Under the pieces are notes generated by a model, which saw nothing but the letters and a program-made list of their open reading frames with translations, was not told the origin of the DNA and did no database searches. Below are positions 1,754-54,800 of a DNA stretch of 64,000 nt, one piece after another. The DNA lies in the NCBI GenBank assembly GCA_021399445.1, contig JAJTUQ010000003.1, positions 6,324,001 to 6,388,000 on the forward strand, given 5' to 3'. How positions within the stretch are numbered: position 1 is the first letter of the stretch; every line of letters starts with the position of its first letter. The DNA comes from Xylogone sp. PMI_703 (lineage: Eukaryota > Ascomycota > Leotiomycetes). The position numbers and the translations under genes are program-made.

Positions 1754-4237
1754 ATGCCCCCGCGGCCGACCGGGTTATCGCCGTCCATGGATCTTGTTGA
1801 TAGCAAGAAGAAGAAGCGTCGGATTCCCCCAAACCTTCGCAGGCGTGCGCTCGTTAGTTGTGACCGCTGCAAACAGCGCCGCGTTCGATGCATTCGTCCT
1901 GGAGAGACCGACGAGAGTGAGGAGCCTTGCCAGAACTGCGTCGAGAGTGGCGTCAAGTGTGAATCGACACTGCCGCGGAAGCAGCGCATCTATGGCAGCG
2001 TAGAGAACCTCAGTGTGCGCTACCGAGTGCTTGATGCTATCGTCAGGGGTCTCTACCCCGACCGCGATACCAGTGATCTCGAGACCTTATTCTCCATAGC
2101 AGAAGCAAACAACATACCTTTACCTCAAACTACTGGACAAAGTTCTAATGAACATGCTCTATTTCAACCTTCATCACCCGTTGATAGACGAGCTACTGGT
2201 GTTCTGGATTCTCCCAGCGCCCCGTCAACGGGAAATGACAATGTCAATCCGTTCGAAAGTCATCCAACCAGGGTCGTAGAGGAGAAGCTCGTTCCGGCAC
2301 CACACGGTGCTTCTCATTATATTGGGCCCTCAAGCTCCTTTAACTTTGTAGTCATGGTAAGAAACATGGTTGCAGAGTATAACGCAGCTTCTCGGACACA
2401 TGAACCAAATGACGAGCAAGTATCTTTGCGAGCGGACTTTGTGCGGCTTCGAGCAAGTAAAGCACTCGAACCTCATGCTGTCAGCGTAGAAGATCAAACT
2501 GGAAATCAGAAACGACAGGATCGGTATTATCTCAATGCGCCTGGAGATGTGGCCCAGAAAAAAGCAAAAGATGCTATCCGAACATTTCTTCCAACCAGAG
2601 ACGTTGCTGACGCATTGGTTGAGGCATACTTTGATCGGGTGCACCCAAACTACATGATCTTCCACCGAGGAGCCTTTCAGATCCGGTACGAGTCACTCTG
2701 GGCCGACGAGAAGAAGCCGATACAGGAATTTGAGACAGGGTTAATATGCAGTGTGTTCATGATGTTTGTCTTTGGAGCCCAAGCGCTTGAGCATCATGAT
2801 GAGCAAAAGTCGATACAGGTGCAGCGACGATACCTGGATCTCGTGCAGTGCCGGACATACCAACTTCTTCATACCACTAGTCTCCTTAACGTGCAAGCCC
2901 TCCTTCTGCTTCAGCTACACCAGCACAATGCTACGGAGAGAAATACATCATGGATGCTTCTCGGATGTGCTTCGCGCATGGCAGTCGCTCTTGGTATGCA
3001 TCGTGAAGGAGCCACGGGTGGATTTGATTCTATTGAAAGGGAAGTCCGGCGCCGCGTATGGTGGACAATATACATCTTTGAACAGAATCTGTGTACTATC
3101 CTCGGCAGGCCCTCTGCAATCGACGATTCCGAAGTCACTATCACATTACCCAAGGAAAACATCTTAGATGGAGGTGATTGTGTCCCTCCAGGATATATAG
3201 ACTACGCACTCCGTTTGGCTAAGCTCACCGCTGAGATCAAACGGAAGGTATACGCTGCTTCAAGTAATATGACAGTTGCCGAGACGCCCGATACCTCCAT
3301 TGCAAATCATCTCCTAGCAAAATTGGAATCTTGGAACCACAGTCTACCTCCATATATACAACTTGAATTCCTTTCTCCCGTCCCTAAACAACGTCGGGCA
3401 GTGCTTCTACTTCACATCCAGTACCATCACGCACAATCTCTTATTACCCGGCCTTTCATTTTGCGAAAAGCGAGGATCCTGGTAGCCCGCCAATCAGGTA
3501 AAAAGGTCAGGTCTTCAGAACTTGATACTGGTGAACTGGAACTCAGTTATGCTTGTGGCACATCTGCTCGGAAGGTCGCCGTTCTCCTGCAGCAGCTTGC
3601 CACAGGTGGTATGTTCGAAGGTATTGCATGGATAGATGCATATTATCTCTACCACTGTATACTTGTCTTATCCCTTGAATTCTTAGCTCGTCCAGCAGGT
3701 CAAAGGGATACATTAGAAGATGCAGCTCGCAAAGAAGCTGTTCGCGATGTAGTCGATGCGATTCGGAACATAAAGCTCTGCTCCACTTTTAAGATCCTGA
3801 CGCAGGTGGCTATGCAGTTAGCCAAGATTGTTGGCATCTTTGATGACGCTACCACAGATAATTACCAGGAAGCTGAAGCCACCGGTAGTAGGGCCTCCCA
3901 ACACCAGCAAATCCCGGCAACTACAGACCCAAGGCAGCAGGGCGATGTCGACAATATGATTAACCAATGGTTCCAAAACGAGAGCATGAACCACTTGCCC
4001 TGGGACATCTTTGGGGATGATAACTATGGGATATTCAACGATTTATATAACCCTGATATGCCAATGACGAGCACATTGAGTGGTTATGTAGCACCAATTG
4101 AGGGTGACTTTACAAGGAGGCCTTTCACGGGTTCACCAAGTATATATCCGGGATGGAGTTCTGTTGAAGAGTCGTATACACAGTCTAATAAGAGTAGCAG
4201 TGGCGGATTCAGTCCAACTAATAACACGAAGGGATAA
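1754..4237 (+). CDS. Zn2Cys6 fungal-specific transcription factor
   Basis: Single-exon gene, 827 residues. A basic stretch (SKKKKRR) precedes a Zn2Cys6 cluster at about residues 36-70 with spacing CX2CX6CX12CX2CX6C (begins CDRCKQRRVRC, ends CQNCVESGVKC). The middle third carries the fungal_trans homology region (for example VEAYFDRVHPNYMIFHRGAF, then RRRVWWTIYIFEQNLCTILGRPSAI). The C-terminus is rich in Ser, Asn and Gln, as in activation regions. The start could also be the internal Met about 12 residues downstream. It should be a nuclear DNA-binding regulator, probably of the adjacent transporter, monooxygenase and hydrolase; that target set is inferred from position only. Confidence 0.93.
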   Translation: MPPRPTGLSPSMDLVDSKKKKRRIPPNLRRRALVSCDRCKQRRVRCIRPGETDESEEPCQNCVESGVKCESTLPRKQRIYGSVENLSVRYRVLDAIVRGLYPDRDTSDLETLFSIAEANNIPLPQTTGQSSNEHALFQPSSPVDRRATGVLDSPSAPSTGNDNVNPFESHPTRVVEEKLVPAPHGASHYIGPSSSFNFVVMVRNMVAEYNAASRTHEPNDEQVSLRADFVRLRASKALEPHAVSVEDQTGNQKRQDRYYLNAPGDVAQKKAKDAIRTFLPTRDVADALVEAYFDRVHPNYMIFHRGAFQIRYESLWADEKKPIQEFETGLICSVFMMFVFGAQALEHHDEQKSIQVQRRYLDLVQCRTYQLLHTTSLLNVQALLLLQLHQHNATERNTSWMLLGCASRMAVALGMHREGATGGFDSIEREVRRRVWWTIYIFEQNLCTILGRPSAIDDSEVTITLPKENILDGGDCVPPGYIDYALRLAKLTAEIKRKVYAASSNMTVAETPDTSIANHLLAKLESWNHSLPPYIQLEFLSPVPKQRRAVLLLHIQYHHAQSLITRPFILRKARILVARQSGKKVRSSELDTGELELSYACGTSARKVAVLLQQLATGGMFEGIAWIDAYYLYHCILVLSLEFLARPAGQRDTLEDAARKEAVRDVVDAIRNIKLCSTFKILTQVAMQLAKIVGIFDDATTDNYQEAEATGSRASQHQQIPATTDPRQQGDVDNMINQWFQNESMNHLPWDIFGDDNYGIFNDLYNPDMPMTSTLSGYVAPIEGDFTRRPFTGSPSIYPGWSSVEESYTQSNKSSSGGFSPTNNTKG

Positions 4238-4424
4238 TGTATTTAGAATTGCTCGCCCAATGCAACCTATGACACAATAAGAAAGGATAAATGCCTGTCT
4301 GGCCCTGTACTAGAAACAAAAAAGAATTACTGATATGTTATGAAGCTTATGTTCCATATTGCTGTATGTAAATTCAGCCAGATTATATATCTAAAGACAT
4401 TCTGCTCTGGTAAACAATCTCAAC

Positions 4425-6055
4425 CTATGCTTTTAAGCTAACCTGTTCTAAGCTCGGCTTCCCAAACGCAGCACTGTCCAAATCAGTTCGCTCCTGTCTT
4501 TCCAACTTCGAAACATACTTGTCTAGCTCTGCATATGCATCATATCCAAACAACTCGTCCAGGAACTCCTTCTGGCTACGAATATTCCTGTGACCCTCCC
4601 ATATACCCGGATGGCTCAGAAGATACTGGTCCCTATCAGCTTGTTTCTCTCCGTCGGGCATCTGCGTAAAGTATCGCGATCCGATGGATGCATTGGCGAC
4701 CTTGGCTGTACGCTTGATACGGAGCTGCTCGTATGCCTTGAGTACCTTGGGGAGGGTCTCCTTGGTTGGATATCTCTCAAGAAGGCCTCCTAGGATGGCA
4801 GAATCCTCGATACCCATAGCAGCTCCTTGTGCGAGATATGGTGTCATGGCGTGAGCGGCGTCGCCGATGAGGCAGAGTTTCTGGGAAGGGTGCACCCAAC
4901 TTGGGAGCTCTTCGTGAGTGTAGAGCTAGATTCACATTAGTAAGACAAGCAAAAATTAGGGAGGTTTCAACTGACTCTCCATTCTAAAACTTCATCGACA
5001 TACTCCAACATCTTGTCGATTCTATGCAGCGTCAGTTCGGGTGCTAATAGAGGGATGTGGCTTCCAAACAAACCTTGGGTCCCAATTTTTGAAGCTAGCG
5101 CGGACTTCATGGTTATCTCCAATCTTCTGATTAACTCCGTCGGGCATGTTAACATCGCATCTATACCTTGTCAGCATCTACTCGTTCAAGTATAGATGTC
5201 TTCGTTACATACGTAAAGACAAAATTTATAAGCGTCTCCTCAACTCCCTCTAGAAGATAGGAAAGGATTGTCCCATAAGGACCAATCCAATGGTTGTTTC
5301 GGGGAACCGTAATCAGTTCCTCAAGCTCTGGAATTCCTTCCAACTTTTTCACCGGGAGAGTAACCCGATAGACCATCTGTCCAGTTGGAACTGGAGGGCC
5401 AGGTCTTCCCATAACTATCTCACGCGCCATCGAGTGAAGGCCTTATATTGTTAGCACGGTCAACGCAACTGTGTATAGACTAACCATCTGAAGCAACGAT
5501 CAAATCACCAGCGAATACATCCCCGTTTTTAGTGGTAAGTGATGGTGCGGAAGGATCGATCTTTACGACTCTGCTGTCTAAGTGGATCTTACAGCCATAT
5601 TCCGTGGCAGCTTCAAATAAGCCTCGGTGGAGATCGGCGCGGTGAATGTGCCTATACTCGTAAGCTTTTGAAAAGTGATAAGAATAGTATTGGAACATCC
5701 AAACTCACCAGTATGGTGACATATACTCTTTATGAGCTGGTTCTTTCAACGGACACTCCACCAAAATTTGACCATTCTGCCAGCGCATCATCCGCAAGTC
5801 CACCGGTTCAGTACAATACTTTTCAATGTATTGGTCGACGCCGAGCTTTCGTAGAATTCGAGACGAGTTTGGTGAAACCTGGATACCAGCACCGATATAT
5901 GATATGGCAGGAGCGCTCTCGATAATTTCCACAGTGTGCCCTGCCTTGGCCAACGCGATGGACACTGTGAGGCCAGCCAGGCCACATCCAATAACAAGAA
6001 TATGCTAATTCCATGTCAGTAATGTATAGGTCTAGCTATAAGTCCAGTATACCAT
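4425..6055 (-). CDS. FAD-dependent aromatic-type monooxygenase
   Basis: Multi-exon gene of the salicylate hydroxylase / 6-hydroxynicotinate monooxygenase group (group A flavoprotein monooxygenases). Motifs seen: the N-terminal dinucleotide fold (ILVIGCGLAGL), the DG motif (LIVASDG) and the FAD-ribityl GD motif (CLIGDAAHAMTPYLAQGAAM). Frame and splice sites give exons near 6055-6053, 6004-5709, 5651-5485 and 5441-5213, a short exon ending FKNWDPR, then RIDKMLEYVDEVLEW and the large 3' exon. The proposed first exon is only the ATG codon before a GTATAC intron with a CTGAC branch point, so the 5' end is less certain. The enzyme would hydroxylate an aromatic or heteroaromatic substrate with NAD(P)H and O2. 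The nearby dienelactone-hydrolase-like enzyme fits a ring-degradation route. Confidence 0.88.
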
Positions 6056-6658: not shown

Positions 6659-7560
6659 ATGGGGAGCCTTCCTGACCAGTGCTGCGATATTCCGCCTTTC
6701 AAATCCAACTATACACCCATTGGCAAAAGGATTACTCTTGATGTGAAAGGCAAAACCCCAATCGAGGTGTACCTAACCGGCCCTTCAGATAGGACTCACG
6801 CAATTATCGGCCTCTATGGTTTGTCAAATGTATAATTCTAACAGCACTAACATTAGTTAACGTCCTTTAGATATTTTCGGCATGCACAGTAACACCCTGC
6901 AGGGTGCTGACTATCTTGCCAAACAATCCGGATACCAAGTGGTTGTACCAGATTTCTTTCGAGGGTGGAGTTGGGATGTCGACAACATACCACCCCGGGA
7001 AGGGAGACCATTCTTAAACGCCAGGATCCAAGAGCGTGGGTCTTGGGATCTGGTGAAGCCTGATTTACTAGAAGTAATCAAATATCTTGAATCACAGGGC
7101 AAAACATCCCTTGGCGTAAGAAAACTCTTAATATGAGAACCGTAGGCTTAACTAACACAATAAAGGCATACGGACTCTGCTTTGGCGCCAAGAAGATTGC
7201 CCAAGGCGCCCACCTTCAGCTTTTCAAAGCAGTGGTGTGTGCTCATCCGTCTTTCTTTGTGCCAGAAGATGCGGATAACATTTCTGTTCCCATTGCTCTA
7301 TTGCCCAGCGATGGGGAGGATAAAGTCGTGATGGATGAGTTTTGGGCTCGAATACAGAAGAAATCATTTGCAGACAAGTGCTATCGAGAAAATTTTGTAA
7401 GTGCATAATTCATGTGATATATGCATCGACTAATTCGGAGAAGCATGATGTTCATCACGGATTTGCCTCGGCTCGATCGAACTGGGACGATCCGCGACTT
7501 GCGCAGAGAGCCCGGGATGCATATAACATCATGACAAAATTCTTCAAGGAGAGGCTATAG
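6659..7560 (+). CDS. Dienelactone hydrolase family protein
   Basis: Four exons (6659-6818, 6871-7115, 7166-7396, 7441-7560) give 251 residues in frame. The family core is clear: LYDIFGMHS after the first intron, the nucleophile elbow GLCFG (Cys in place of Ser, typical of DLH), an Asp in LPSDGEDK and the C-terminal His in HDVHHGF. These would form a Cys-Asp-His triad of an alpha/beta hydrolase. DLH enzymes open lactone or ester bonds of ring-cleavage products, which suits the neighbouring flavin monooxygenase. An in-frame ATG 14 codons upstream exists, but MGSLPDQCC is the usual start in fungal relatives. Confidence 0.9.
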
Positions 7561-8049
7561 ACACATGCTATGTATCAAAAATAAAAAGTTTCACACGTTA
7601 GAATTGTCCGATTATGTTGTCTAAGGCATTATTTGCAGATGATTAATCCAAGTACTCGACCCAGAGCAGCTTCAGACCGTCAACATATCCTACAATTCAT
7701 CATACTTAAATTGTCTTGGAATCTGGGAATAGCTCACATAAATAGCTAGCCATGTAGTGATTATAACCATAGGGTGGGACATGCAGTAGTTTACTCTGCA
7801 CTGATCATAGGCCCATAGAGGATGACCACGAGGTAGGAAGCTGGCCACTTAAGAATCATCTAACCACCATTCATAATGTGATCTTTATGATAATCACAAG
7901 TAGATTGAATATATACAGGGTGTATGATATATTAGAAACACTCCAAGCAATTAGACTAAGGTTTTCAAAGCTAGACTACTTTCTAATCAGTGTTTGTCAT
8001 GTCTACACATATCTATCTTGGATATCTAAGAATTTCAGGACTTTCTGCC
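7561..8049. other. Intergenic, no gene seen
   Basis: AT-rich spacer between convergent genes. It probably holds both 3' ends; no ORF here looks coding. Confidence 0.5.
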
Positions 8050-8856
8050 TCAGTTCTGAACAAGTTGATATATAATTTCAGTCTGTCGTAGGAACGACGC
8101 TCCATCATCTGCTCCATCTCTCCACGGTTCCCAACACTCACCAGAAGAGCCACGACGTTCTGCTGAAATCCGGCAGGTGGTGATTTGTGCTGGATTTTCA
8201 TCTGCATTCTCAGCGTTACTCTCAGCTATCCAGTCCACTTCAAGCAACTCCTGCCACTCCAAACCGGCTCTTTCGACAGTGATTTCATCCATAGCAGCAA
8301 GAATAGACTGTGGCTCTTCATCGCCATACAGTCGTTCCACTACCGTTAGGAAGTGCGCCCAATCAATCCCAGGTGGCAAGTAGATCATATAAAGCCGACG
8401 CTTGAGCGGGCAACCGAAATGTGAGTAGAGGCTTCGTGAATGGTTGCCAGAGTCTGAGGTAATGCCGAAGAGCAAATACGTTTCTTTGGTTTCGTTATCC
8501 CCGTAGACTTTGTCGTGATATTCGTCCTCTCCCTCCCATTCTTCATCCCATTTAATCGGCCAGTCTGGAGGAAACCATTGGGGGTGCTTTTGGTAGAACT
8601 TCACACTACAACTCCACTGGGATTTCTTATCCTGAGTCTGCGCATGATGGTGTCTTTCATCTTCTTCTCTATTCTCTTTGTGAGATTTCAACACTACTCT
8701 TTCCAATTCTTGCACATTTAAGACTGTTTCAGCGGCGTCATCTTTTATTGAGAGGGTAGAAGGCGAAATTAAACCTTGACGGAAGACCTGCTGTCCTTGT
8801 CGATTGACTAACAATATTCCGTTAGAAGGAACGATGTTTTTGGAGTCCGCTGCCAT
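8050..8856 (-). CDS. Hypothetical protein, unrecognised family
   Basis: A single open frame of 268 residues from ATG at 8856. Composition looks coding: a hydrophilic His/Asp/Glu-rich stretch near residues 60-80 (EEDERHHHAQ), a Trp- and acid-rich centre (WFPPDWPIKWDEEWEGEDEY), then LYMIYLPPGIDWAHFLTVVERLYG. No signal peptide or membrane segment is seen. The last 30 or so residues may be altered by an unnoticed intron. I do not recognise the family, and the neighbours give no functional clue because the gene lies between two clusters. Confidence 0.6.
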   Translation of the reverse strand: MAADSKNIVPSNGILLVNRQGQQVFRQGLISPSTLSIKDDAAETVLNVQELERVVLKSHKENREEDERHHHAQTQDKKSQWSCSVKFYQKHPQWFPPDWPIKWDEEWEGEDEYHDKVYGDNETKETYLLFGITSDSGNHSRSLYSHFGCPLKRRLYMIYLPPGIDWAHFLTVVERLYGDEEPQSILAAMDEITVERAGLEWQELLEVDWIAESNAENADENPAQITTCRISAERRGSSGECWEPWRDGADDGASFLRQTEIIYQLVQN

Positions 8857-9942
8857 TTCTAAGCAATACTCTCCTTTGCTTCAATGATAGCTTCCTTGAA
8901 AATTTATCAGACAGTTGGCAATACACCTGTTTATGTTTTTTACTATTCAATCGCTACTCTTCTGAAAGATGACAGCGTAAAGTTCTAGATTTGATAAAAT
9001 TGGCGCATAATTACGCCGTTCTTACGAACAGGCGGTCTAAAATTAATTAAATGGCTTACTATTCCACCGGGTGCATCTTTAGTTTTCACCGCTATATAGC
9101 TAAAACTGCTTACCAAGCTCGCTATTATTACCTCCTTAATTGTATCATGCAGGCGTATTTCGGGGGCTAGGGGCCATTGTCCGTTCCAAACTTTAATGCA
9201 AATAAGCGTTTCCAATGGGGTCAAAGTGGGCATATAGGTATGTGGATAGAGCTTGAATTGAAGATTTCAGTTTATGTGCAGAGGCTGCAGATTATTTTTT
9301 ATTAAAGTTGACCATCTGACACTCACTCGGAAACTCTCGCCTTTCTTGAATTAATATATTATTGATTTAACAAATTTTCGAATATCTAGCTATTTTTTAT
9401 ATATCTAACTACCTTATAATAGCCAGACTGTATGATAATTTATTTAAATATAACTAGCCCAAAACAAGGAGGTAAACAGTGGCTAAAGATCGTGGCCCTA
9501 TGTGCCTGAGGCCTTAAAAAGCTGAAGCATGTAGCCTGTAGATAGAGTGCTCTACAGGCCACAGAGGCCAGGCTAGATTAAGTTAATAGTTGAATCGCAT
9601 TGCTAGGTCTCTTCCTGTAGTACTAATAAATTGTATGCGACTGTGAGGTGAAGTCATACGAATTATGCGGGGTGGGGTCCGGAAACCAGAGGTTGCTGGT
9701 GCCCATAGATAAAGTGCCAGTGCCTTTAGCTCTGGCCATTTTTAACTCACTGTATGATTTCTCCGATTGCCGACTATTAGTTATCACTCCATCCCATTAT
9801 GGTTCAACAGAAAACCGAAGCGCCTCATGCTGTCGGTTATATAACGTGGTCAATCAAGAAGCATCTTTCTGCCTCCAGAGTACGTATTAATCACTGTCTG
9901 CGCTTAAGTGAACTCGACTGAGCTGCATCAAATTGTATGACC
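8857..9942. other. Intergenic with AT-rich tract
   Basis: About 1.1 kb without a supported gene. Positions 9300-9470 are strongly AT-rich with many TA-rich repeats and stops in all frames, as in RIP-degraded relics. A short perfect hairpin lies at 9534-9559. The ORF at 9648-9890 shows no domain. Confidence 0.5.
9534..9559. repeat. Perfect 9-bp inverted repeat
   Basis: Arms GCCTGTAGA and TCTACAGGC are separated by 8 nt. It lies in noncoding DNA. It could be a chance hairpin or a remnant of a small mobile element. Confidence 0.5.
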
Positions 9943-22166: not shown

Positions 22167-23147
22167 TCAGTCCAGGCTACTTTCGAGTTCAATTAGTTCT
22201 GCCATTCCCGCCTTGATATCCTCCAAAGCATCGTTCCCAGGTACAGCACAAGGCTTTCGAGGCAAGCCCCCATAGCCGTAGAACATTTGCATTGCGCATT
22301 TGACCGCAACAAAACCTCCTTTGATAGCAATCCAGTCTCCGCGTGACACAATAGCCTGGACTTCTCGAGCCTCATCAATCTTACCCATTTTGTAAAGATT
22401 CATAACTTGAACACAAGCTTTGGGGGCAATGTTGGCAAGCCCTGCGATTACACCATCACCACCAACAACCAGTGTCTGGAGAATGAAGTCTGCAGAGCCT
22501 CCAGTGGTTAAGAAATCCTTGCTTGTCCCGGCTGCGACACGGACTAATTTGCCAGTATTCCCGCATGTAAGTTTAACGCCTACTATATTTGGGTGTCGTG
22601 AGAGTTGTAAAATTGTGTCTGAATTGAGATCTAAGCCGCTGCATGCGCCAGGGAAATTATAGATGAGTAACGGAATGGGACTTTGATCAGCTACATCTCG
22701 AAAGTACTGGAGAACCAGATCTGGAGTCAACAGTGATCCGTAGTAGCTCGGTGGTAGTACTAGGGCATAGCTTCCTCCAGAACGAGCTGCTTCAACGCAC
22801 AACTGTACTGTCTCCTTTGTCGACTGAGCTCCACAGCCAACAATTAGAGGCATATCTCTTCTGCCAATCGAGTCGAGTGCTTGACGGGTGGCAGTATTGA
22901 TCAGCATTCGTTCTCGGTGGTCTAAGTGAACGGCCTCGCCATTGCTACCGTGTGTGACAAGACCAGCAACCCCTGCTTTCGCAAGTTTAATGGCATGTTT
23001 CTCAGTAGTCTCAAGGTCGATTTCATTTGTGGTATCATTAAAAAATGCCACTATTGGGACATATATGCCGGGAATAAGAGGCCTTTCAGTGAAAGCGGCA
23101 GAAGAGCTGCCATTCCCGGAGAATGAACTGGTTGAGGTAGGAGACAT
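22167..23147 (-). CDS. DHDPS/NAL-family 2-keto-3-deoxy acid aldolase
   Basis: Intronless, 326 residues. (beta/alpha)8 class I aldolase of the dihydrodipicolinate synthase family: the GSNGEA substrate loop, the conserved Tyr in PLLIYNFPG, and the Schiff-base Lys in VGVKLTCGN. This family includes the fungal L-threo-3-deoxy-hexulosonate aldolase (GaaC/LGA1) and bacterial 2-keto-3-deoxy-aldonate aldolases. Beside a galactonate-dehydratase-like enzyme, the likely reaction is cleavage of a 2-keto-3-deoxy-aldonate to pyruvate and glyceraldehyde. 4-hydroxy-2-oxoglutarate aldolase activity is an alternative. A Ser-rich N-terminus of about 20 residues precedes the fold. Two CCCCACGCT-type motifs lie 208 and 404 bp upstream. 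Confidence 0.92.
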   Translation of the reverse strand: MSPTSTSSFSGNGSSSAAFTERPLIPGIYVPIVAFFNDTTNEIDLETTEKHAIKLAKAGVAGLVTHGSNGEAVHLDHRERMLINTATRQALDSIGRRDMPLIVGCGAQSTKETVQLCVEAARSGGSYALVLPPSYYGSLLTPDLVLQYFRDVADQSPIPLLIYNFPGACSGLDLNSDTILQLSRHPNIVGVKLTCGNTGKLVRVAAGTSKDFLTTGGSADFILQTLVVGGDGVIAGLANIAPKACVQVMNLYKMGKIDEAREVQAIVSRGDWIAIKGGFVAVKCAMQMFYGYGGLPRKPCAVPGNDALEDIKAGMAELIELESSLD

Positions 23148-42949: not shown

Positions 42950-45926
42950 TTACTCCATCCCTCTGAGAGAGGTCGCGAACTTGAAATCACAGACGCTCCC
43001 CAAATCAAATGCTCCAAGCTCCCTAAGGTCATACTGCTGTAGATTTTCCGTTGACTTTGACTTGGGATCAAAAACTAGCTCACATCTGTGTTGTCGCCTC
43101 TTGCGCCCCAACAGCCGTTTCAACCCACTTAATTGATCAACTTCAGTATCAATCTTAACTGCAAGTTTGAATATGTCCTTGTCCTTCCTCTTCAGTAGTA
43201 CCGCCGTTCGCATCGAAATCGGAACTCCTGTCTTCGTAGTTTTATTCTCTAGCAATGTCCAACTAGCGCAGTTCGGCGGCCCCCAATTCCTCCCTATCAA
43301 ATCAATACTCCCTATAACCATCGCATGGTCACTCCTATCCTTCCTAAAATTCTTTTCCCAACGAACTGTTCCTCCCGCCATTATCCCTTCAGCCGAAGCC
43401 GTCACACTATTCGCAAAACTTTGATTGTACTCCACCTCGTATAGCGCATACCGTCCATCAGGCGCGATATTAAATACCTCCGGCCCAACCTCACCAGAAT
43501 CCATTCCCATGAACTCCATCGATATATCTGTAGACATAACCCTTCGCCTCTGTGTTTGAGTATCGAACCGAAATTGCAACACGATTAGGGAGGCGAATAG
43601 ATCGCTGCCAGAAGAAAACCATCCGTGTACTATATCGACACAAGAACAATGGACATAGAAGCCCTTATTGTGCTCGGTATAACTCATTTCTTGAGAAGCT
43701 GCCAAGGGGTAGTTTTCCGTGCGGAAGGAACCGCCTTCATCGTCCGTTTCGGAGAGCCTCATGTTGAAGGAAGGGAGATCACTATCTTCAATTGCTGCTA
43801 ACTCGTCAGGGCTGGTAGGCGTCAGCACAGAAACATTAAAAATATAAGGTAGCCCTGATAACTTACAATCCGTTCCAGTAAGCCTCGTTCAACATGGAAC
43901 GCTTCCATTGCTCTACGTCGCAATTAGGAAGTATTCTTGCCGCTTCTATCTCTACAGAATGGGCACTCTCTAAATGCCGGAAATATGCATCATCGCCTTG
44001 AGGGCTCCGTAAGTTACAAAGGGTACATATCCATTCCTTTGGCTGTTGTTTCCCACTAGACCTGACGGTATTTTGCGTATCCTGGGATGAGTGAGAGGTT
44101 TGAGACGAAAACCTACCATCACTAGATCCATCTTTGAAGTAATCATTTTGAGAAAAATAATCATTGTCGAAATGGGTTGACGGTGATGACTCTTCTTCGC
44201 TTTCTGTTGATGGTTTCCGGTCAAAATCAGAAAGCTGCAGCGATAACTCACCCTTTAGTCTTGTGTTTTTGGGGAACTCAGCGATATCTAAAGCGAGCTC
44301 ATTGCCTTCAGGATCGTTAACTATAATGACTCCACGGCTTAGGTCGAATGTTGGGACCACACTTTCAGCCCACTCAGCAATATGGGAAATATTTTCGTTA
44401 CTTTTATCATCTTTGATAATGTTAACGGCACGACTCACATCGAATGTCCCAATCGATTTGCTTAGGCTAATAGTCGGATCCGTAGGCCACGGAAGGGAAC
44501 GGAGAGAAAAGTCATGCACGTGCTGCAAAACATGTTCGACCAAGTCTGGTGAGTCCTGAGGTCCTTCGGAATCACATAAATAACATTTTGTAATTCCCAT
44601 CACATTGATTTCTGCTGCCGATAACAAGTCTCCGATATCGTCAGAAATAATATCTAGATGTTCGGACATCAGATGACCTGTGATTCCAGAGAGCGACTCG
44701 AACATGGGAGGATCGTCTTCGCAGCAAGGACATTGCCATTGAGGCGGGTGTTCATTCAGGACATGATCCTTCCATTCATTCTGTGTTACGAAGATATTGT
44801 ACGGCGTTGGACAGTTCTCGAGGATGCAGGTGTATGGACATAGATCATTCGCCACATGTTTTCTGATCTCGTTAATATCCTGTTCAAATGGTGGAAGAAT
44901 TTCTTACCTCCATTGACTGTCTTCAAGTTCAGTGGCCGGAATAGCTTGACAGCAACAAGGGCATTTGATCAATTTCTGGTCTAGATTCGACGAAGTTTTT
45001 GCTTTGGGATATTTTGCGGCAGCCGTAATGGCCGTGATACGAGTGACTGTCGATCCGGGCCGGCGCTTATTCTGAAGTCCTCCCCATTTCGAATCTAGAC
45101 CAGAGGCGGATGTCGTGGGGATAGTCGGTGTATCTTTTCTAGGGCTGTTCGCCGCTTGTTTCTGTAGCATTGTTGCAGCTACCTTCTTGTCCTGCATTGG
45201 GCTCACTTCCTGCGCTGTGTGAACTGCTGCCATTGTGATGAACTTCTGCGGGATTATAGTATGGAAAGCCTTCATGGAAGGGTCTTTTAGTCCATGAGAG
45301 TGTCTCTGGGCTTCCATAAATCGATGTCTCCGTCTTAGGTTGGCCTCGACAAGGCGTTCCTGAATTGGTTGGAGCTTCATATTTGAGAAGTAATCGGCAC
45401 TGTGAACTCCATTACTTTCATCTTTCGGTCTACCCTCCTTGGTTGGCTTCGACGTGATGACACAGGCGAGATGCGCTCTAAGCTTGCGATACCTGTCCCG
45501 ATTCTGATCAAAGGAATCATCTGCTTTTCGGAGTCGAGATTTACGGCCACTTCGCCGAATTTCAACCCCTATCAGGGCGAGGCTGTCTACAGTCGAATCA
45601 ATATTAGTGATTATATCCCGAACATCAAACTTGTTATTGGCCGCGGCAAAACATTCCTTCAAAAATCCTTGCAGCATGGAAAGGAGCTCTCGGATGAAAT
45701 AAATGTCGTCTGGCCGGTGCTGGAATCTCGAATCCAGAGAAGCCTTTGCTTGGGCCGTGGCCCCGACACTGTCAGCCCAGAGCCTCAAATCTGCAAGTCT
45801 TGTCTGTATATGGGTCTTGTATTCGCCCTCTAGTTGTTGGATACATTGTTGGAACTCCTCGAGGCATGATCTTGTCACACCGGCAGTCGAGGCTTCTTTT
45901 GAAGTAAGATCCACGGCGGAAGTCAT
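42950..45926 (-). CDS. Multi-zinc-finger protein with beta-rich C-terminal domain
   Basis: Exons 45926-44908, 44862-43867 and 43811-42950 sum to 2877 nt (958 residues plus stop); both junctions keep frame (SQWR|KHVANDLC; YWNG|FPDELAA). The N-terminal 300 residues are helical and hydrophilic. Then come repeated C2H2-like units: KCPCCCQAI, LCPYTCILENC with downstream H..H, QWQCPCC with HLMSEHL, KCYLCDSEG with HVLQHVH, and WICTLCNLR with HLESAH. This layout matches the fungal 'oxidoreductase acuF-like C2H2 zinc-finger' group. The third exon forms a separate domain (VFNIAPDGRYALYEVEY, DLIGRNWGPPNCASWTLLEN, GVPISMRTAVLLKR) that I have seen as a C-terminal module in other fungal proteins but cannot name. 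It is divergent, 353 bp away, from the S8 protease gene. A role in the same pathway is conjecture. Confidence 0.8.
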
Positions 45927-46279
45927 GGTTGGTCACCCGAACCGGTAGAATTCAGGGCGTCAAGGGCCTGATACTGTACGTTTGAGTAGTTGGCCGCGTG
46001 GCGGTCGTTATCCTTTTGGATTTCAATTTACTCTTCACAAGCTGGAATCTCATAGAGGGGTTGGGGGCTGCATTCCCTGCAGCAAAAAGGCGAGCCTGAT
46101 TTCGAGGGCCACGTAAGGCCTTGGTCAACTTGTGAACGTTTGGAGGAGGCTGAATCCTCAGCTGAATCCCAGACCCCACCTCTCTGCCAACAACAAGATG
46201 CTCCGGCAGCCTGATCTCAAAGTCATCTCCGTTGTCGGTGACATTTTTGCTCTCTTCCTTGGATCTCTCTTATGTTATT
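45927..46279. promoter_or_regulatory. Divergent promoter, zinc-finger protein / S8 protease
   Basis: 353 bp between two divergent starts. Co-regulation of the two genes is possible. An overlapping short ORF (46132-46347) is out of frame with the protease and is not called. Confidence 0.45.
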
Positions 46280-49200
46280 ATGGGGCATTCGAAAATTCAT
46301 GTCTTCGCCTCGGAGGTGCTGGCTTCGGTGGCTGGGGATGCATCTGATGTTCTCATGCCCATCGCCATCAAGCACAGGAGCGGGTTAGCGGGCGAGATCG
46401 CCACTCGACTTCGATACATCCCAGAGTATTTGTCCGCGCAGGAGCTTTACCAACTTCCCCCCGACGCCCAAATCCTTTCTTTACAGGCTCTCCAAGATCT
46501 GGTAGAAATCTGCAATGTAGGCCACGTTCCCAAGCATTAGAACAGTGAACTGAAGTAGTGGTCTAATTAGTGGCCAACGCTTTCAACTCCCGGGAGTCGC
46601 CCCCCTTTGATGAAGAACCCTCAGGAGCTGCATGATGATCTGACTCAACTATTTAAGACCAAAAGTTCAAGAGATCGAGTACAGAAATCAATTACCGAGT
46701 TTTGCAAAAAACCACCTGATACTATCAAGCCTTTCCAATCGCGCTTTGCGCAGCTTTTCGAAAAGCTCAAGAATACGCGGGAACCGCAGGACGCCTCCAC
46801 TGATATCACTAATCATTCACACTCGAAGCCTCTTCCAAGGGATGTGTATCCTAATGAAGTTCACAGGATGCTCCTCGATGCACTCAAGAGCTATGGATCT
46901 TGTAAGCCGAAATTACATGTAACGCCGGTGCCCAAGGATCCGACGGAAAATGATTGGCATCTCACCAGGCTCTGCCTTAACTCTGGATTTCGATCCGGAA
47001 ACGAACTAGCCCTTTTCGACATCATAACAGCAACATCAGAGATGGCTTATTGGCAGGAAATGACCATCAGCGTTCCAATGTAAGTTACTGTTTCTTTTCG
47101 AAAGCTGTTCCTACCCGTCAGAAGTCGTGGTCATTGGGTATATGCATAGGAGAATCCAGATTCGTGGATGTTTCTCCAGGATGCCAAAAAGCCCCAGCAA
47201 ATAAAGGGGCTAGAAATAGTGGGACCCATTTCGACAATCCCTTGATACACTTTTGATGAGTCTCGGCGAATTTTAGCATCTTGTCACTGATACAAGCTTG
47301 ACACTTCCTCTGATATCTGAGAGTTTCAGGTGCCAGTGAAATGCCCACCGCCCGATATAATACCAATGACTCATCCAGAGGCCTATCCCTCCCGTCCATA
47401 CGACGGACTTGTTTTGTCCCTAAGAAACCCTGCCGGCGCTCAGCTGGTCAAAGCTAGCTAACAAAATATAGAAAAGATCCCGAACCCAAAGATGTACAGA
47501 AACTCCAGCAAGGCAATAGAATTACCTTTGACCCTTCTAAGTTGTCCTTAATGGAGTATGGTGATATTTGCATGCGGCTTGAAAATCCAAACTATGCAAA
47601 AATTTATCTGGGTAAGCTGAAATCTCATCCTTCCCGGATTTTGATGACTCCTCTCGAATTTGAATATTTCCCATTCGAATCTCACTGTCTGGTGCTTCAA
47701 CCAGAGAAACCTTCAAGACAGGTCTCTCAAATACTAGAAAATTGGCCACTAGTTCTAATAATAGCCCATGTTTTCTCCCCAAGTCAAGACCTAGAAGCTA
47801 TACGAGAATTTTCGCATAAGAAGCGAGGATTCTCAATACATGGGGGCAAACGCTAACTTCTGGGAAATTTCCTTTCATTTATTCCATACAAAGTACTGAC
47901 TGATCAAGCCAGATTTAGATGAAAACTGCCGTCTTTTCGAACGGCCGGAAGTTGGAGTCCTCCAGGATATTATATCAGGCCGTGACATTCAACTTTCGGA
48001 ATTATTGAAACTAACCAACCTCACAGTGGAGCATAAGGTCAAATTGTCCTATGCTATTGCTCGAGCCTTTTGGCAATTTTACAATTCGGAGCTGATGAAC
48101 GCCAGATGGACAAGCGAAGACATCTTATTCATCCCTCTCCAGAAAGACACCCCGTTAGAAGATATTCCGCTAAGAGCTTTCGTTTCGTTTCCTTTTGGTT
48201 CCCGATATAAAGAATCGCCAGCTGAGTTCTACAGCGAGGGCCAATATACCCACCGGTATCCACGAATATTCTACTTGGGGATTGTTCTTCTGGAAATTGG
48301 TCTTGGCCAGGCACTGGGACTGGAGCACAACCCAAAACTTAGCTTCCTTGGACACATAAACTTAGCCTATTCCACTGCTCGGAAGAAGCTCAAGGAATTA
48401 AAGAACGAGGAGTGGGATGGCTTTCAGTGGAAAGACTACTTTATCAAAGCCGTTGAGAATTGTTTGGAACCCGTTAACTTTAAACAGATCCCAAGGCGCA
48501 CAAAATCTCGACGCCAAGGTGATTCGAAAGATGCTAATAAAGATATAAAAGATTCATCGCTCTCAGAAAGGAGAGATGCTCTGTACCGAAATGTTGTCGC
48601 CCCCTTGTTTTGGTTAGCCAAGGTGGGATTCGAGGACTCGGAAGAAATACCAATGGTCCCAATTCGGGAGAGAATACCTCCTAAATCGACATTTATCGAT
48701 AATAAGGAGCTTCAGCACTCCTGGAATGAAATTCGCGAACACCCTTCATTCCTTTGTGGTAGTTCAAGTAGTACTGAGGGGTTCCTTAGTGATCTTCAGG
48801 TGATAGCGGGGCATATAACGCGCTGTCGACGACTGGCGAAGATCACGGAGCCAATTCGAGTCGCCATTCTAGATACCGGATGTAAAATAGACCTCCCATT
48901 TTTCAAAAATTCACAAAGGCTAAACCGGCTCAAAGGCTGGAAGGACTTCACTACAGCAGGATCGAAGAGTGAAATAGATGCTTTTGGGCATGGAACATTC
49001 ATGGCACGACTGCTTATGCATGTTGCGCCAATAGTGGACATTTACCTGATTCGCGTAGCAAAGAATACAGATGACCTAGAGAACAACGAAGAAAATATTG
49101 CCAAAGTATGTGCTACGTAGCGCTTCTTAACAATGTACTGACCACAAACCAGGCAATTGAGCACGCGGGACTAGATACAGGATGGAAAGTTGATGTTATT

Positions 49201-49806
49201 TCCATGTCCTTCGGATTCCCCAATCAGTCTGGGAAGAAGTATACTGTTATTTCAGATGCCATCGAAAAAACCACAAAAAATCGTGATGGTTCCGTGCTAT
49301 TTCTTGCCAGCGCTGGGAACTCATCGCAAAGAAGGAAAGATTTCCCAGCAAGTCACCGAAATGTCATACCCATTTATGCGGTCGACCCAAAAGGAGCTTT
49401 CTTACGGTCGAATCCAGCATATACTGGAAAGGGACCTGATAAACTTGGTACTTATGGAACAGATATTCCTCTATCTATCATCAGAGAAATCCAGGATTAC
49501 TTTCCCAATGCGGATCTGAGCGCGGGAACGTCCATTGCTACTGCTATTGCAGCTGGGATCGTCTCCATGACACTCTCGTATATTGCAGCACTGCCATCTC
49601 TACTCAATTTCCAACCTGGGAAGGAAGTGTGCGCTAAAATTTACACGAAGAAAGGGATGGAGGGAATGCTGCATGCCATGTCGCTAAACACTGACCATCA
49701 AGGGCAATTTATTAGCCCAATATGGTTCTGGGGAGAGAAAAAGAGAGATCTGGACATTTTTGTTTCTGTTTCCTCCGTGGCTGAGAAAATGGATAAGGAG
49801 GAATAA
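46280..49806 (+). CDS. Subtilisin-like S8 protease with N-terminal DUF7580-like region (HET-Q2-type)
   Basis: Five exons (46280-46516, 46571-47079, 47472-47611, 47913-49105, 49153-49806) sum to 2733 nt, 910 residues. The N-terminal 590 residues match the DUF7580-type helical region common in fungal NLR-like and incompatibility proteins: DIITATSEMAYWQEMTISV, YLDLDENCRLFER, RVKL-like SYAIARAFWQFYNSE, FYLGIVLLEIGLGQALG. The protease domain follows with catalytic Asp (VAILDTGC, codon 48872), His (FGHGTF, codon 48989), oxyanion Asn (SAGNSS, codon 49318) and Ser (SAGTSIATAI, codon 49531). There is no signal peptide, so it is probably cytosolic. It is tail-to-tail with a gasdermin-like gene, as het-Q2 is paired with het-Q1 in Podospora, where the protease cleaves the gasdermin. 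The start at 46280 is inferred. Confidence 0.88.
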
Positions 49807-50441
49807 AAGACATGAATACGCCCCTATGTTTTTGTATCACAATTAGCATTTTAATCTTAAACAATGCAAGAAATATATATCTCCATGTTTCCTCGGGGGA
49901 CTGACATTTTCCAAAGGTAGTACTGATCGAAAGTGCTGAGGCTTTAGACTTAATGCCGTGTCGTATGGCTAGGGAATCAGCTGTGAAATACGTTTAGCTC
50001 TTAGGAACGACCGAACATATGGCTTTGGATACAATAAGTAGCCATGAGGAGTTAAGTAAAAACACAGTAGATAACTGATTTAAAGCCGGAACCTCGATAT
50101 AAGAATAATACAAACAAAGGCACCTAGCCCATGTAAATCGAATTTACGCTCCCTTCTTTCCGCTACTGCGCCGGAATCTGACGCCCTTAAAGCTGCTTTT
50201 TGTTGCATGATTTTCGGTGTATCATAATGGGTTGGGAGGTTATACAATATAGGTGTGCATGCCCATGGTTGTTGAAGGGCAATGGAATCACAATTATATT
50301 AGGATCATAAGAGATAGTTGAATTGAACTACTAAACTAATCATTGAATTTCGAATAAGAGTAGCCATATACAAAGGAGCAGATTGTCTCTTTGAATACTC
50401 TCAATATATTGGCCTAGAAGGTCTGAGAATTTGTTTTTTCA
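49807..50441. other. Intergenic between convergent protease and gasdermin genes
   Basis: 635 bp, AT-rich, no ORF with support. Probably both 3' UTRs. Confidence 0.5.
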
Positions 50442-51281
50442 TCATTCCTTTAGCGGTATATAAACGCACAACTCGTCTTCTCCAATCTCTGTACTTTCGT
50501 ACTCCACCTCCTCCTCCAAGTCCTCGTCGATTTCATCTTTTGTCGCTTCGACAACGATCAATGGTTCTTCCTTTGTGCCCCCGGCACCAGTTAAGAACGC
50601 GCTCTTGTGGCTAAACAGCTCTGTCTCCACTCCTGCTCTACGAGTTCGAATGACGTTTAGTTGATATGCGAACACAATCCCCGGAGCCGTGTCGTACGAG
50701 TCGGTAACTTTCTTCTCGCCTTTGTGTTTCGCTGTTCCACCGACTTCGGCCGGCACCGTCCCTGTAGGCGGCCCGGACCCTTCGACTTCAACGGTGACAT
50801 TGGAGCTGTTTTCCTGTGTTACCGTAAATGATGAGGTGGCGATGCGCAGGCCCGAGACCATGTAAACGGGACGCTTGCCAAACATGCCAGAGTCGATCTG
50901 GGCACGCACCGCTGGGAGATTTGCAATTGCGGTCACAGTGTCTGGAAGGATTGGCTCTGAGAAACGCCGGATTTCATGATCCGTTTTACTGTAGTCGATG
51001 GTACTACTCTGCCCGATTTCATTGCTGGCTGATGTAGATGCGATGCTTTCGAACTTGAACCATATGCTAAGGCTGTCGGATCGCGACTTTGAGCGACTGT
51101 GGACATGGTTCGGCTCCACAAGGGTTGTAGGAGCTGGTAGCTTGATTTCACTTGCAGTGCCCGAGCCTACAACCGCGAGGACGGAGGTAGGCTTGGACCA
51201 GTGTGAGATCACCATGCCAAGGCGGAGCGGGCCATCAGTCGTGAAGGTGAAGTCGGGGGGGAGAAACCATGTTGCAGGCAT
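50442..51281 (-). CDS. Gasdermin-like cell-death effector (HET-Q1/RCD-1 type)
   Basis: Intronless, 279 residues from ATG 51281. The start MPATWFLPPDFTF is preferred over an in-frame ATG 25 codons upstream because it matches the usual start of fungal relatives. The pattern follows the gasdermin pore-forming domain: DGPLRLGMVISHWSKPTSVL near residues 16-35, a long amphipathic strand pair (LSIWFKFESIASTSAS), KRPVYMVSGLRIATSSFTVT at about 136-155 (compare LYVVTE in animal gasdermins) and TAPGIVFAYQLNVIR at about 198-212 (compare the IPKGTVLAY strand). After AFLTGAGG (about 228-235) comes an acidic tail of about 45 residues (DEIDEDLEEEVEYES), where fungal gasdermins carry their short inhibitory end. 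No signal peptide is present. Cleavage by the adjacent protease would be expected to release the pore-forming part. Identity rests on pattern recognition, not a search. Confidence 0.75.
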   Translation of the reverse strand: MPATWFLPPDFTFTTDGPLRLGMVISHWSKPTSVLAVVGSGTASEIKLPAPTTLVEPNHVHSRSKSRSDSLSIWFKFESIASTSASNEIGQSSTIDYSKTDHEIRRFSEPILPDTVTAIANLPAVRAQIDSGMFGKRPVYMVSGLRIATSSFTVTQENSSNVTVEVEGSGPPTGTVPAEVGGTAKHKGEKKVTDSYDTAPGIVFAYQLNVIRTRRAGVETELFSHKSAFLTGAGGTKEEPLIVVEATKDEIDEDLEEEVEYESTEIGEDELCVYIPLKE

Positions 51282-52085
51282 GATGAGGTCGTGTCCTTTT
51301 TCCAAGAGCTTGAAATGGATCAAGGTATGTTCTATTAGAAGGATTGAATTATCCACGATCGCAAGATTGAATATTTGATTATTCCATAAATCCTCCTCAG
51401 CCTTAGCCGCTAGAAATCGTGGCTATACCTGGTTGGGAGGACTTGGCAGCCAGCTGATGGTTCTCAATCGTCGGGTTGATTGGTGCCATCCTGCTCAGCC
51501 ATTGTCCCCGGGAGGTAGACAAGGCTGTAGTAGTAGCTACATATACAAACCGACCCTGTAATGGGGTTTATATATTTATATTTATAGCTATTTGCGTCCA
51601 GCGCATGGTTTATACCTTAATAAAAACATTATACTTTAGATACTTAAAACTTAAAAATATTATAATAAATTTTTTTATAATACTTTAAGTTTAAGTTTTA
51701 CGGTTTAAGTCTTTAAAGTCAAGGGGTTTTAGTTATTATTTTATATAACTTTAAAAACTCTTTAAGAGAAACTTTAATAACTTCAAGTTGAAGATCTTTA
51801 AGGGGTTGACTACCTTATAACTCTTAAGGCTAAAAACATAAATCAATATATTCTCAGCTAGAGTATGGTTACCATTACTCAATAGTGTCTAATTATAACT
51901 ATTTAGGTTCCTGATTTGTCTACAGGGAGGAAAGGCTGACCGAAGGAATCACCAAATTTATGCTCTCGAGTCCGCAGTTGGAATGCTGGGGATTTCTTGT
52001 GGATACTGCCTAAACAAAGAAAGGCCCCTTTAATATACGTAACTTTGTGTGTTCAGAAAAGCTCAGAATTTGTGCGAAAGGTGGA
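51282..52085. other. Intergenic with strongly AT-rich relic
   Basis: Upstream side of the gasdermin gene. Positions 51600-51850 are extremely AT-rich with degenerate ACTTTAAA/TTTAAGT words and an imperfect hairpin near 51640-51700, typical of a RIP-degraded repeat. Confidence 0.55.
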
Positions 52086-54800
52086 TTAATATTGTGGTAA
52101 AGTATCACGCAGCCTTAATATAACCTTCACAAAACTTTCAGCAACTCCCCATACTGGTCGACGCCTTAGAATCTCAACTGTTTGTTCTAGGCTTTGGCGC
52201 CGCCCATCATCACAGCATAGCGATGATATACCCTGCAAGCTTACTTTCTGAGTTTGTCCGGTTTTAAGCCATGTCACCAGTTTAAACGATTCTTCATCAT
52301 CTTCACAGGTGCTGAGATGGTCGAGCTTTACAGCAATAAACTTCTCTGTGGAAGATATACATTTTGGTAGGAGTTTAGCTAGATAGAACAAGACGGTCCC
52401 TGCATGAAAGATGAGAAATGGTTCGATTGGTGAGTTACTTGGATAGGTCCTCGCTAGTGAGAGAATCTGCGCGCTGTGGTAGGCTGCCTCCCTTACGCTC
52501 TCAGGCTTTGCAGCGGCCCACTCGTTCAGCTGAGTGAGTGCTAAGGTAGCTCTATTGCCGTCACGGAGGAGGGGGTAGAGCCAATTCATCAATCCACCAG
52601 CTCCGTAAAGGTGAGCAACATGAACTACTTGTTGGGTGTGTATAGCTCTAGCCAATTCTACTGTTGTTAAGCTGGCACTCAGTATCCGTGATGACTGCGA
52701 GAAGAGATCAACTGCGGCTAGGAGTCGTGGTGTGCTATTCTCAGGCCTTTCTCGCATGAGGTCGCTGATAGGAGATGACATCATCTCTTTCAGAGTCCAG
52801 ATCATCCTAACTAATGTTAAGATAACTATGTATCGGTGTTCTTCCTCCTTGACCTTCTCCGTTGGATCTGGTGTATTGTTGAAGAGTGTCCGCATAGCCC
52901 ACCTAAAGCTTTGGGATTTGGGAATCTCCGAAGGCGATGGTAACATAGACAACCAGCAATGAGCAGATTCAGCATTCCAAAATTGCGATGGACATGGAAG
53001 ATCTAGATGCATATCTCCTATGCTGAGGAATGGTCGATTATTATGGAGATATGCCACCGAGGCGTCATATTTCTAGGTATTGAGGTGTTAGCGGACGAGT
53101 CATTATAGTGGAATAAAGAGATCAATACATAGACAGCCCAGCCTAGGCGGCATAGTTGTTCTTGCCGAATCCAATTCTTCCATCTTTGTTCAACTGACGT
53201 GTCGGACAACGAGTCTGATTTTGCCTCCGGCCGAGGACGGAAGAGATTTATGCACTTTGCATGGTGTACTAGATTGTTGCGAAAGGACTCACTTAGTTCG
53301 AATAATCGTTTATTGCCGCTACAGTAACCGTGTATGCCTTGCAGTAGCTGGGTCGTTAGGTATGGCTCTGTTCTTACATATCGAGGATCATATTCGGCCT
53401 GAACGGTAAATGCGATTAGCATTAAACTTTACACATGGAAGTAATGTACTTTACCAGAAATAGAAGTAGTCGGCGGTTAAGTTCAGATAGTGTATTCGAA
53501 AATGTTTTTGCCTCTGGCAAGTGAGTATAAAGAACACCAATACAAGCAACGGCAAGGGTAACAGTGAGATCTCTGGCTGGATCAAAAGTCGGTTGATGGA
53601 TGATTGGCCAAGTCTACGGATGATTAATAAGCCAATGAGCAAGAAAATCAGAGAACTTACTTGTTGAAAGTGAGCAAAATAACGATCAATACAGTGTTCG
53701 AGCTTTTCCTTCGATGGAAAGTGCTTCAAGTTGATAGGTTGCCATGGGCTTTGCTGACTTGGCATTTTAATATACTGTATTAGCGTGTCAACAGTACATG
53801 GTCGCAAAGCCCAGGTCGAGAAGAAGCGTGAGAAGAATTGGCCATCATCATTACTGTCCCCAGCACCAAGATCCGGCAGCTCTAATGGGCGATGCTGATA
53901 TTCAGCGTGCCATTCCATTGGCCATGGGTCATCAGGACTGCAGCTATCCTCCGAAAGCGGCATAGTTGGGAGCTCCAAGATGGTCGAGTTTCTACGTGGT
54001 GGTGATTTAGTATCATCATATGAGTACGTTTCTTGTGGACTTTGATCTATTAAATGCTGATGGGAATCTTCATCATCTAGGATTATATCATTTGGGAGAT
54101 ACAAATCTGTAAGGTCCACCACATCGTCACCAGGTACCGGATCAAAAAGCCAATCGAGATTGGAATTGAAGTCAGTAGCACCCAACAAATTGACAAATTC
54201 ATTTTCGAATATTCCAGATACACCCACGGTTGGTCCAATGGAAGGGAGAATATTTTCACTCATAGGTGATGTATGGATGTCATCAGTTGTTTCTATATTA
54301 ACATCTGTAGATGAGAGGGGGTCAGTAGGCTGACTCGTGCTCGGGCTCGAGTGCGGTAATGTCGGAAACGAAGTTCTTGCAATAGTGTCGTCGTGTAAAT
54401 TTCTAGGTAGGACTTTGCAGTTGGATCCATAGACACAATGTATCCCCCGTCGTAAACAAGACGTACACGAGGGTCGCTGACCTGTGCATTTGATCTTAGA
54501 TCTTGGGCTTAGTTAGTGATATACACTTAAGGATAACTGGGAGAGTGGACTATCCCACTGGGAACAACTTATACACGCCGTCCTCTTTCGTCTTTTTAAA
54601 CTTCGATGTTCCTCATGGACACGCATGTGGCGAAGCATGCTATCACTATAGAGAAGTTCCCAATCAGAAGAAATATTCATGGATCTTGGGGAGCACACTT
54701 ACGAACGACCAAAGGAACGTAAGCATTTCGGGCAAACATGTCCATTGGAATGCTGTTGTAGTTGTAGCTGTAAATCTACAGGCTGAGACATGGAGCTCAT
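52086..54800 (-). CDS. Dual C2H2 + Zn2Cys6 transcription factor
   Basis: The start at 54800 opens MSSMSQPVDLQ. A C2H2 finger is completed across intron 1: CPKCLRSFGRS|DSMLRHMRVH (C-X2-C-X12-H-X3-H). A basic linker (LKRRKRTA) leads to a Zn2Cys6 cluster completed across intron 2: ACISCSQ|SKIKCTGQRPSCTSC and ending RGIHC (CX2CX6CX6CX2CX6C). A Ser/Thr/Pro-rich and acidic region follows, then the fungal_trans domain in the 3' exons (for example KHFPSKEKLEHCIDRYFAHF, later GGLMNWLYPLLRDGN). The tandem of both finger types is a recognised fungal TF subclass, often inside metabolic clusters. It probably controls the EthD-to-monooxygenase genes to its right; that is inferred from position. Confidence 0.88.

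Follow-up and report, generated by a model that had tools for sequence, protein, structure and literature searches.

A probable fungal gasdermin gene beside a DUF7580-subtilisin fusion and a divergent zinc-finger gene in Xylogone sp. PMI_703

One feature of a 64,000-nucleotide stretch of the ascomycete Xylogone sp. PMI_703 (contig JAJTUQ010000003.1, positions 6,324,001 to 6,388,000 of the forward strand; "the window", to which coordinates refer unless a locus is named) is a probable fungal gasdermin gene lying tail-to-tail with a gene that joins a DUF7580 region to a subtilisin-like (S8) protease, from which a zinc-finger-like gene diverges. The arrangement recurs elsewhere in the same genome. 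It is highly probable, in our view, that the cluster is a compact pyroptosis-like suicide module in which the DUF7580-S8 protein would be receptor and activator in one. The gasdermin-protease pair is of a known kind, since such pairs have already been described in print; the fusion to a dead-kinase-like DUF7580 region and the co-conserved zinc-finger gene are the variation found here.

The protease gene (46280-49806, plus strand) has five exons (46280-46516, 46571-47079, 47472-47611, 47913-49105 and 49153-49806) that join in frame to encode 910 residues, and its four introns (54, 392, 301 and 47 bp) all have GT..AG borders. A second locus in the same genome (L012) has matches to parts of exons 1, 2, 4 and 5, and the 301-bp intron is supported by an open frame at that locus which, read by eye, passes straight through the intron position. 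Pfam, run on the five exon pieces separately, identified a Peptidase_S8 domain (48842-49806, interrupted by the intron at 49106-49152; E 7.5e-10) and, ahead of it, a pseudokinase-like DUF7580 region (PF24476; 47993-48607, E 6.7e-21, 75.7 bits for a gathering score of 27). The catalytic motifs DTG, GHGT, AGN and GTS are all intact and supply D616, H655, N749 and S820, in agreement with the initial annotation, which had described an S8 protease with its Asp, His, Asn and Ser residues in place. No signal peptide was seen, a judgement made by eye only.

The gasdermin-like gene is a single exon, one open frame running from 51281 to 50442 on the minus strand and encoding 279 residues; its tail-to-tail position, 635 bp from the protease stop, is confirmed from the coordinates. 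That this protein is a gasdermin, as had been proposed from its letters, is probable through homology to relatives. Searched alone it gave no gasdermin match, and a profile combining it with its same-genome relatives (A2) reaches Neurospora RCD-1-2 at E 7.8e-10. The match is driven by the relative at locus L013, which by itself reaches E 5.6e-10, and a profile of the window and L012 proteins without it attains only E 0.014 against RCD-1; against the HET-Q1 chain, A2 scores only weakly (E 0.19). A low-confidence structure model of the protein also ranks RCD-1 first, its other matches (phage coat proteins and others) being treated as noise. Both this model and that of a DUF7580 family member (L034) are weak, with a predicted local distance difference test (pLDDT) of 37 and 56; their alignments hold 4 and 9 rows. 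The short acidic tail claimed for the protein is evident, with 18 D/E and 3 K/R among the last 46 residues (50445-50582, minus strand); it is a candidate autoinhibitory segment, and is 52.5% identical to that of the L012 paralog over 40 positions. An AT-rich stretch (GC 0.32) occupies 51500-51999, just upstream of the gasdermin start, and frames at 52086-54512 (minus strand) resemble, by eye, a fungal zinc-cluster transcription factor.

Our survey covered the window's own genome (50.1 Mb), one genome only, in which 33 S8 rows were merged by hand into at least 27 loci, and which holds 17 DUF7580 hits (one below the curated cut-off and one containing stops). The two domains are fused at four loci, namely the window, L012 (C19:2.148 Mb), L013 (C22:2.735 Mb) and L014 (C12:6.869 Mb). 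A supported gasdermin adjoins three of these four fusions, and all three supported gasdermins adjoin such a fusion, that of L012 having been located by a genome-wide search and that of L013 by reading of the locus. Between the window and its paralog, identity is 51.7% for the protease frame (615 positions) and 53.4% for the gasdermin core (193 positions). Because both genes stand side by side again elsewhere in the genome, the window pair is more than a chance association, and the view that the two families are conserved neighbours is borne out within this genome, at L012 and L013. L012 itself is partly broken (3712-4482 and 7325-7522): the start frame of its gasdermin stops after 17 residues, with the rest continuing in a different frame, and an in-frame stop interrupts the region of protease exon 2, while its DUF7580-S8 and zinc-finger frames are open. 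This decay fits turnover of such clusters; no frame break of the kind was seen at the window locus.

At the fourth fusion, L014, a 319-residue frame (7021-7977) is tail-to-tail with the protease gene and carries the right motifs by eye. As a gasdermin it is left unproven: phmmer against the PDB, a leave-one-out hidden Markov model and a genome search all failed to support it, and in hhalign it ranked 117 by score, 138 frames having been put in. In loci L001-L007 and L015-L037 nothing exceeded the inclusion threshold of the gasdermin profile, which is blind to sequences as divergent as that of L014. A further L014 frame (2-997), NTPase-like by eye, had no Pfam match. Outside the supported gasdermins, C19:5418902-5419090 gave a weak gasdermin match (E 0.03), with a DUF7580 hit some 5 kb away (C19:5413342). 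CHAT proteases occur at 7 loci in the genome, none within 600 kb of the three gasdermins.

The third member of the cluster, absent from the initial annotation, is the zinc-finger gene at 43866-45926 (minus strand), which is conserved together with the pair. Its start and that of the protease are separated by 353 bp (45927-46279), a candidate shared promoter. With splice sites read by eye, it comprises an N-terminal exon (45926-44908), a 45-bp intron (44907-44863) and C2H2-like fingers at about 44475-44862; a GTAAGT donor at its 3' end suggests one or more further exons below 43866. The gene is 47.9% identical to the counterpart that diverges from the L012 protease (631-column alignment), and eight paired Cys/His positions of its protein are invariant in 8/8 aligned relatives; no Pfam zinc-finger model scored above the cut-off. 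When open frames of at least 40 residues from 30 kb round L012 were compared with the whole window (E<=1e-3), matches were limited to the protease, the gasdermin and the zinc-finger gene, plus one 20-residue match at 22207.

Used alone as a genome query, the finger part of the window gene retrieved 12 loci at E<=0.01; leaving out the window, nine of the other 11 are divergent and within 5 kb of a DUF7580 hit. Four zinc-finger queries, of which two come from DUF7580 loci, together yield 11/14 loci head-to-head within 5 kb of such a hit, a figure that becomes 11/17 if three left-out loci with E 0.01-0.1 (C20:6131757, C22:3041856 and C20:1422653, none near a DUF7580 hit) are counted. The naive binomial chance of this linkage is 2e-24, a figure to be read with the caution that copies arising by block duplication are not independent. 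L013 too has the zinc-finger gene, but on the opposite flank, past the gasdermin. On the side that this gene takes at other loci, upstream of the DUF7580-S8 gene, L013 holds a frame (8588-9265) resembling by eye the reverse transcriptase of a long interspersed element (LINE). The zinc-finger partner frame of L034 (1065-2546) also has Annexin matches (PF00191, E 3.8e-10), and the N-terminus of one zinc-finger protein matched HeLo at E 0.055, below the cut-off. More speculatively, the gene linkage suggests that the zinc-finger protein may serve as a paired sensor or regulator.

The DUF7580 region looks like a pseudokinase: the family member L034 models with a kinase fold, and the catalytic Asp of the HRD motif, at a position inferred by eye in alignment A5, is absent in 9/9 DUF7580 sequences. 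The region had been taken as a link to fungal NOD-like receptors (NLRs). With a kinase fold modelled, the catalytic Asp seemingly missing and no NACHT or NB-ARC match when the five exon pieces of the protease were scanned with Pfam (E<=1), a scan that a degenerate domain could escape, that link is not supported and we reject it. The proposed pairing of gasdermin and S8 protease, of the het-Q type, is supported. A HeLo-like N-terminus, suggested by eye for DUF7580-only proteins, was rejected: the three scanned pieces gave no match to HeLo. At L033 (3770-5659) DUF7580 is fused to PNP_UDP_1 (E 1.4e-10) in place of S8; a divergent zinc-finger gene adjoins it, and the contig is without an S8 match.

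By analogy with HET-Q1 and HET-Q2, the module would work as follows. The gasdermin would be made as an inactive monomer, restrained by its short acidic C-terminal tail, and in the cytoplasmic DUF7580-S8 protein the N-terminal part and the dead-kinase domain would keep the subtilisin domain inactive pending a trigger, perhaps sensed by way of the zinc-finger protein from the head-to-head gene. The freed protease would then trim that tail from the gasdermin, letting the pore domain oligomerise in the plasma membrane and kill the compartment. Cleavage, pore formation and cell death are thus predicted from the Podospora system; autoinhibition by the tail and a part in allorecognition are likewise putative.

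That an intracellular subtilisin of unrelated function merely happens to lie next to a gasdermin is very improbable. With at least 27 S8 loci in the genome some proximity is possible, yet the three supported gasdermins each adjoin the rare DUF7580-S8 type (4 loci), no other listed S8 locus lies within 20 kb of them, and chance pairing is largely refuted by the repeated neighbourhood. We think it rather unlikely that the cluster is an allorecognition (het) locus proper, at which strains would differ in protease or gasdermin alleles and hyphal fusion would unite an active protease with an uncleaved gasdermin. The genes het-Q1 and het-Q2 do act in this way in Podospora (PMC12881547, PMC10989679), the decay of the L012 cluster fits a pseudogenisation model for such systems (PMC10197012), and the hetB incompatibility allele of Aspergillus fumigatus is a CHAT protease, for which gasdermin involvement is only suggested (PMC11138114). 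However, the survey covers a single genome, and the reading frames at the window locus are open, so that, instead of a polymorphic het locus, it may represent a general receptor.

Head-to-head plant NLR pairs provide a model for an arrangement of sensor or decoy and executor. The zinc-finger/DUF7580 pair could likewise be a two-gene receptor in its own right, with the zinc finger as sensor or decoy, DUF7580 as executor, and S8 plus gasdermin as one captured output among several; we regard this as a real possibility, if somewhat short of an even chance. A divergent zinc-finger gene lies within 5 kb of 10/17 DUF7580 hits, and seven of those ten have no S8 hit alongside, one of the seven being L033 with its PNP_UDP_1 domain. 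S8 and PNP_UDP_1 are both listed among the N-terminal domains of fungal NLRs (PMC9815663), and a possible decoy role of zinc fingers in NLRs has been discussed (PMC12258605). On the other hand, linkage is not interaction, it is known here from one genome, and 7/17 DUF7580 hits are without a divergent zinc-finger gene within that distance.

Beyond the suicide module that we favour, we put forward, tentatively and with more doubt than conviction, that DUF7580 pseudokinase proteins might form a class of fungal immune receptors apart from NLRs, each with a sensing zinc-finger partner encoded head-to-head and an exchangeable output that brings about death, be it S8 plus gasdermin, a PNP_UDP_1 phosphorylase or another domain. 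If this were true, one receptor type could drive pyroptosis-like and other cell deaths, and the repertoire of fungal immune receptors would extend beyond NLRs. Which stimuli activate the putative sensors of fungal death pathways is described as a major open question (PMC12881547), and a pseudokinase receptor whose zinc-finger partner is conserved and encoded head-to-head with it makes a concrete candidate sensor.

Among known systems, the source literature puts about 63% of fungal gasdermins next to S8 genes (PMC10197012) and more than 80% in clusters with protease genes (PMC12881547, PMC10197012). For the Q2L proteases, which share with our gene the clustering of S8 with a fungal gasdermin, these sources count 18 architectures and also note fusion with kinase-like domains (PMC12881547, PMC10197012); the fused domain here differs in being named as DUF7580, kinase-like and without the catalytic Asp. 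In the portions of the literature searched we found no mention of a zinc-finger partner of Q2L/gasdermin clusters, nor of DUF7580 by name, and earlier descriptions of either the partner or the architecture are possible. RCD-1 of Neurospora crassa is the closest solved gasdermin both by sequence profile and by model, yet it works through two allelic variants without cleavage (PMC12881547), whereas the window gasdermin ends in an acidic tail and lies beside a protease gene. A resemblance exists also to the gasdermin operons of bacteria, in which a pore-former with a short inhibitory C-terminus goes with a dedicated protease (PMC10989679). A close likeness is to HET-Q1/HET-Q2 of Podospora anserina, with a gasdermin of 278 residues (279 here), a short tail and an adjoining S8 protease. 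HET-Q2, however, has 388 residues (PMC10989679) as against the 910 of the protease described here with its pseudokinase-like N-terminal part, and the window pair, known from sequence alone, is set apart by its conserved divergent zinc-finger gene.
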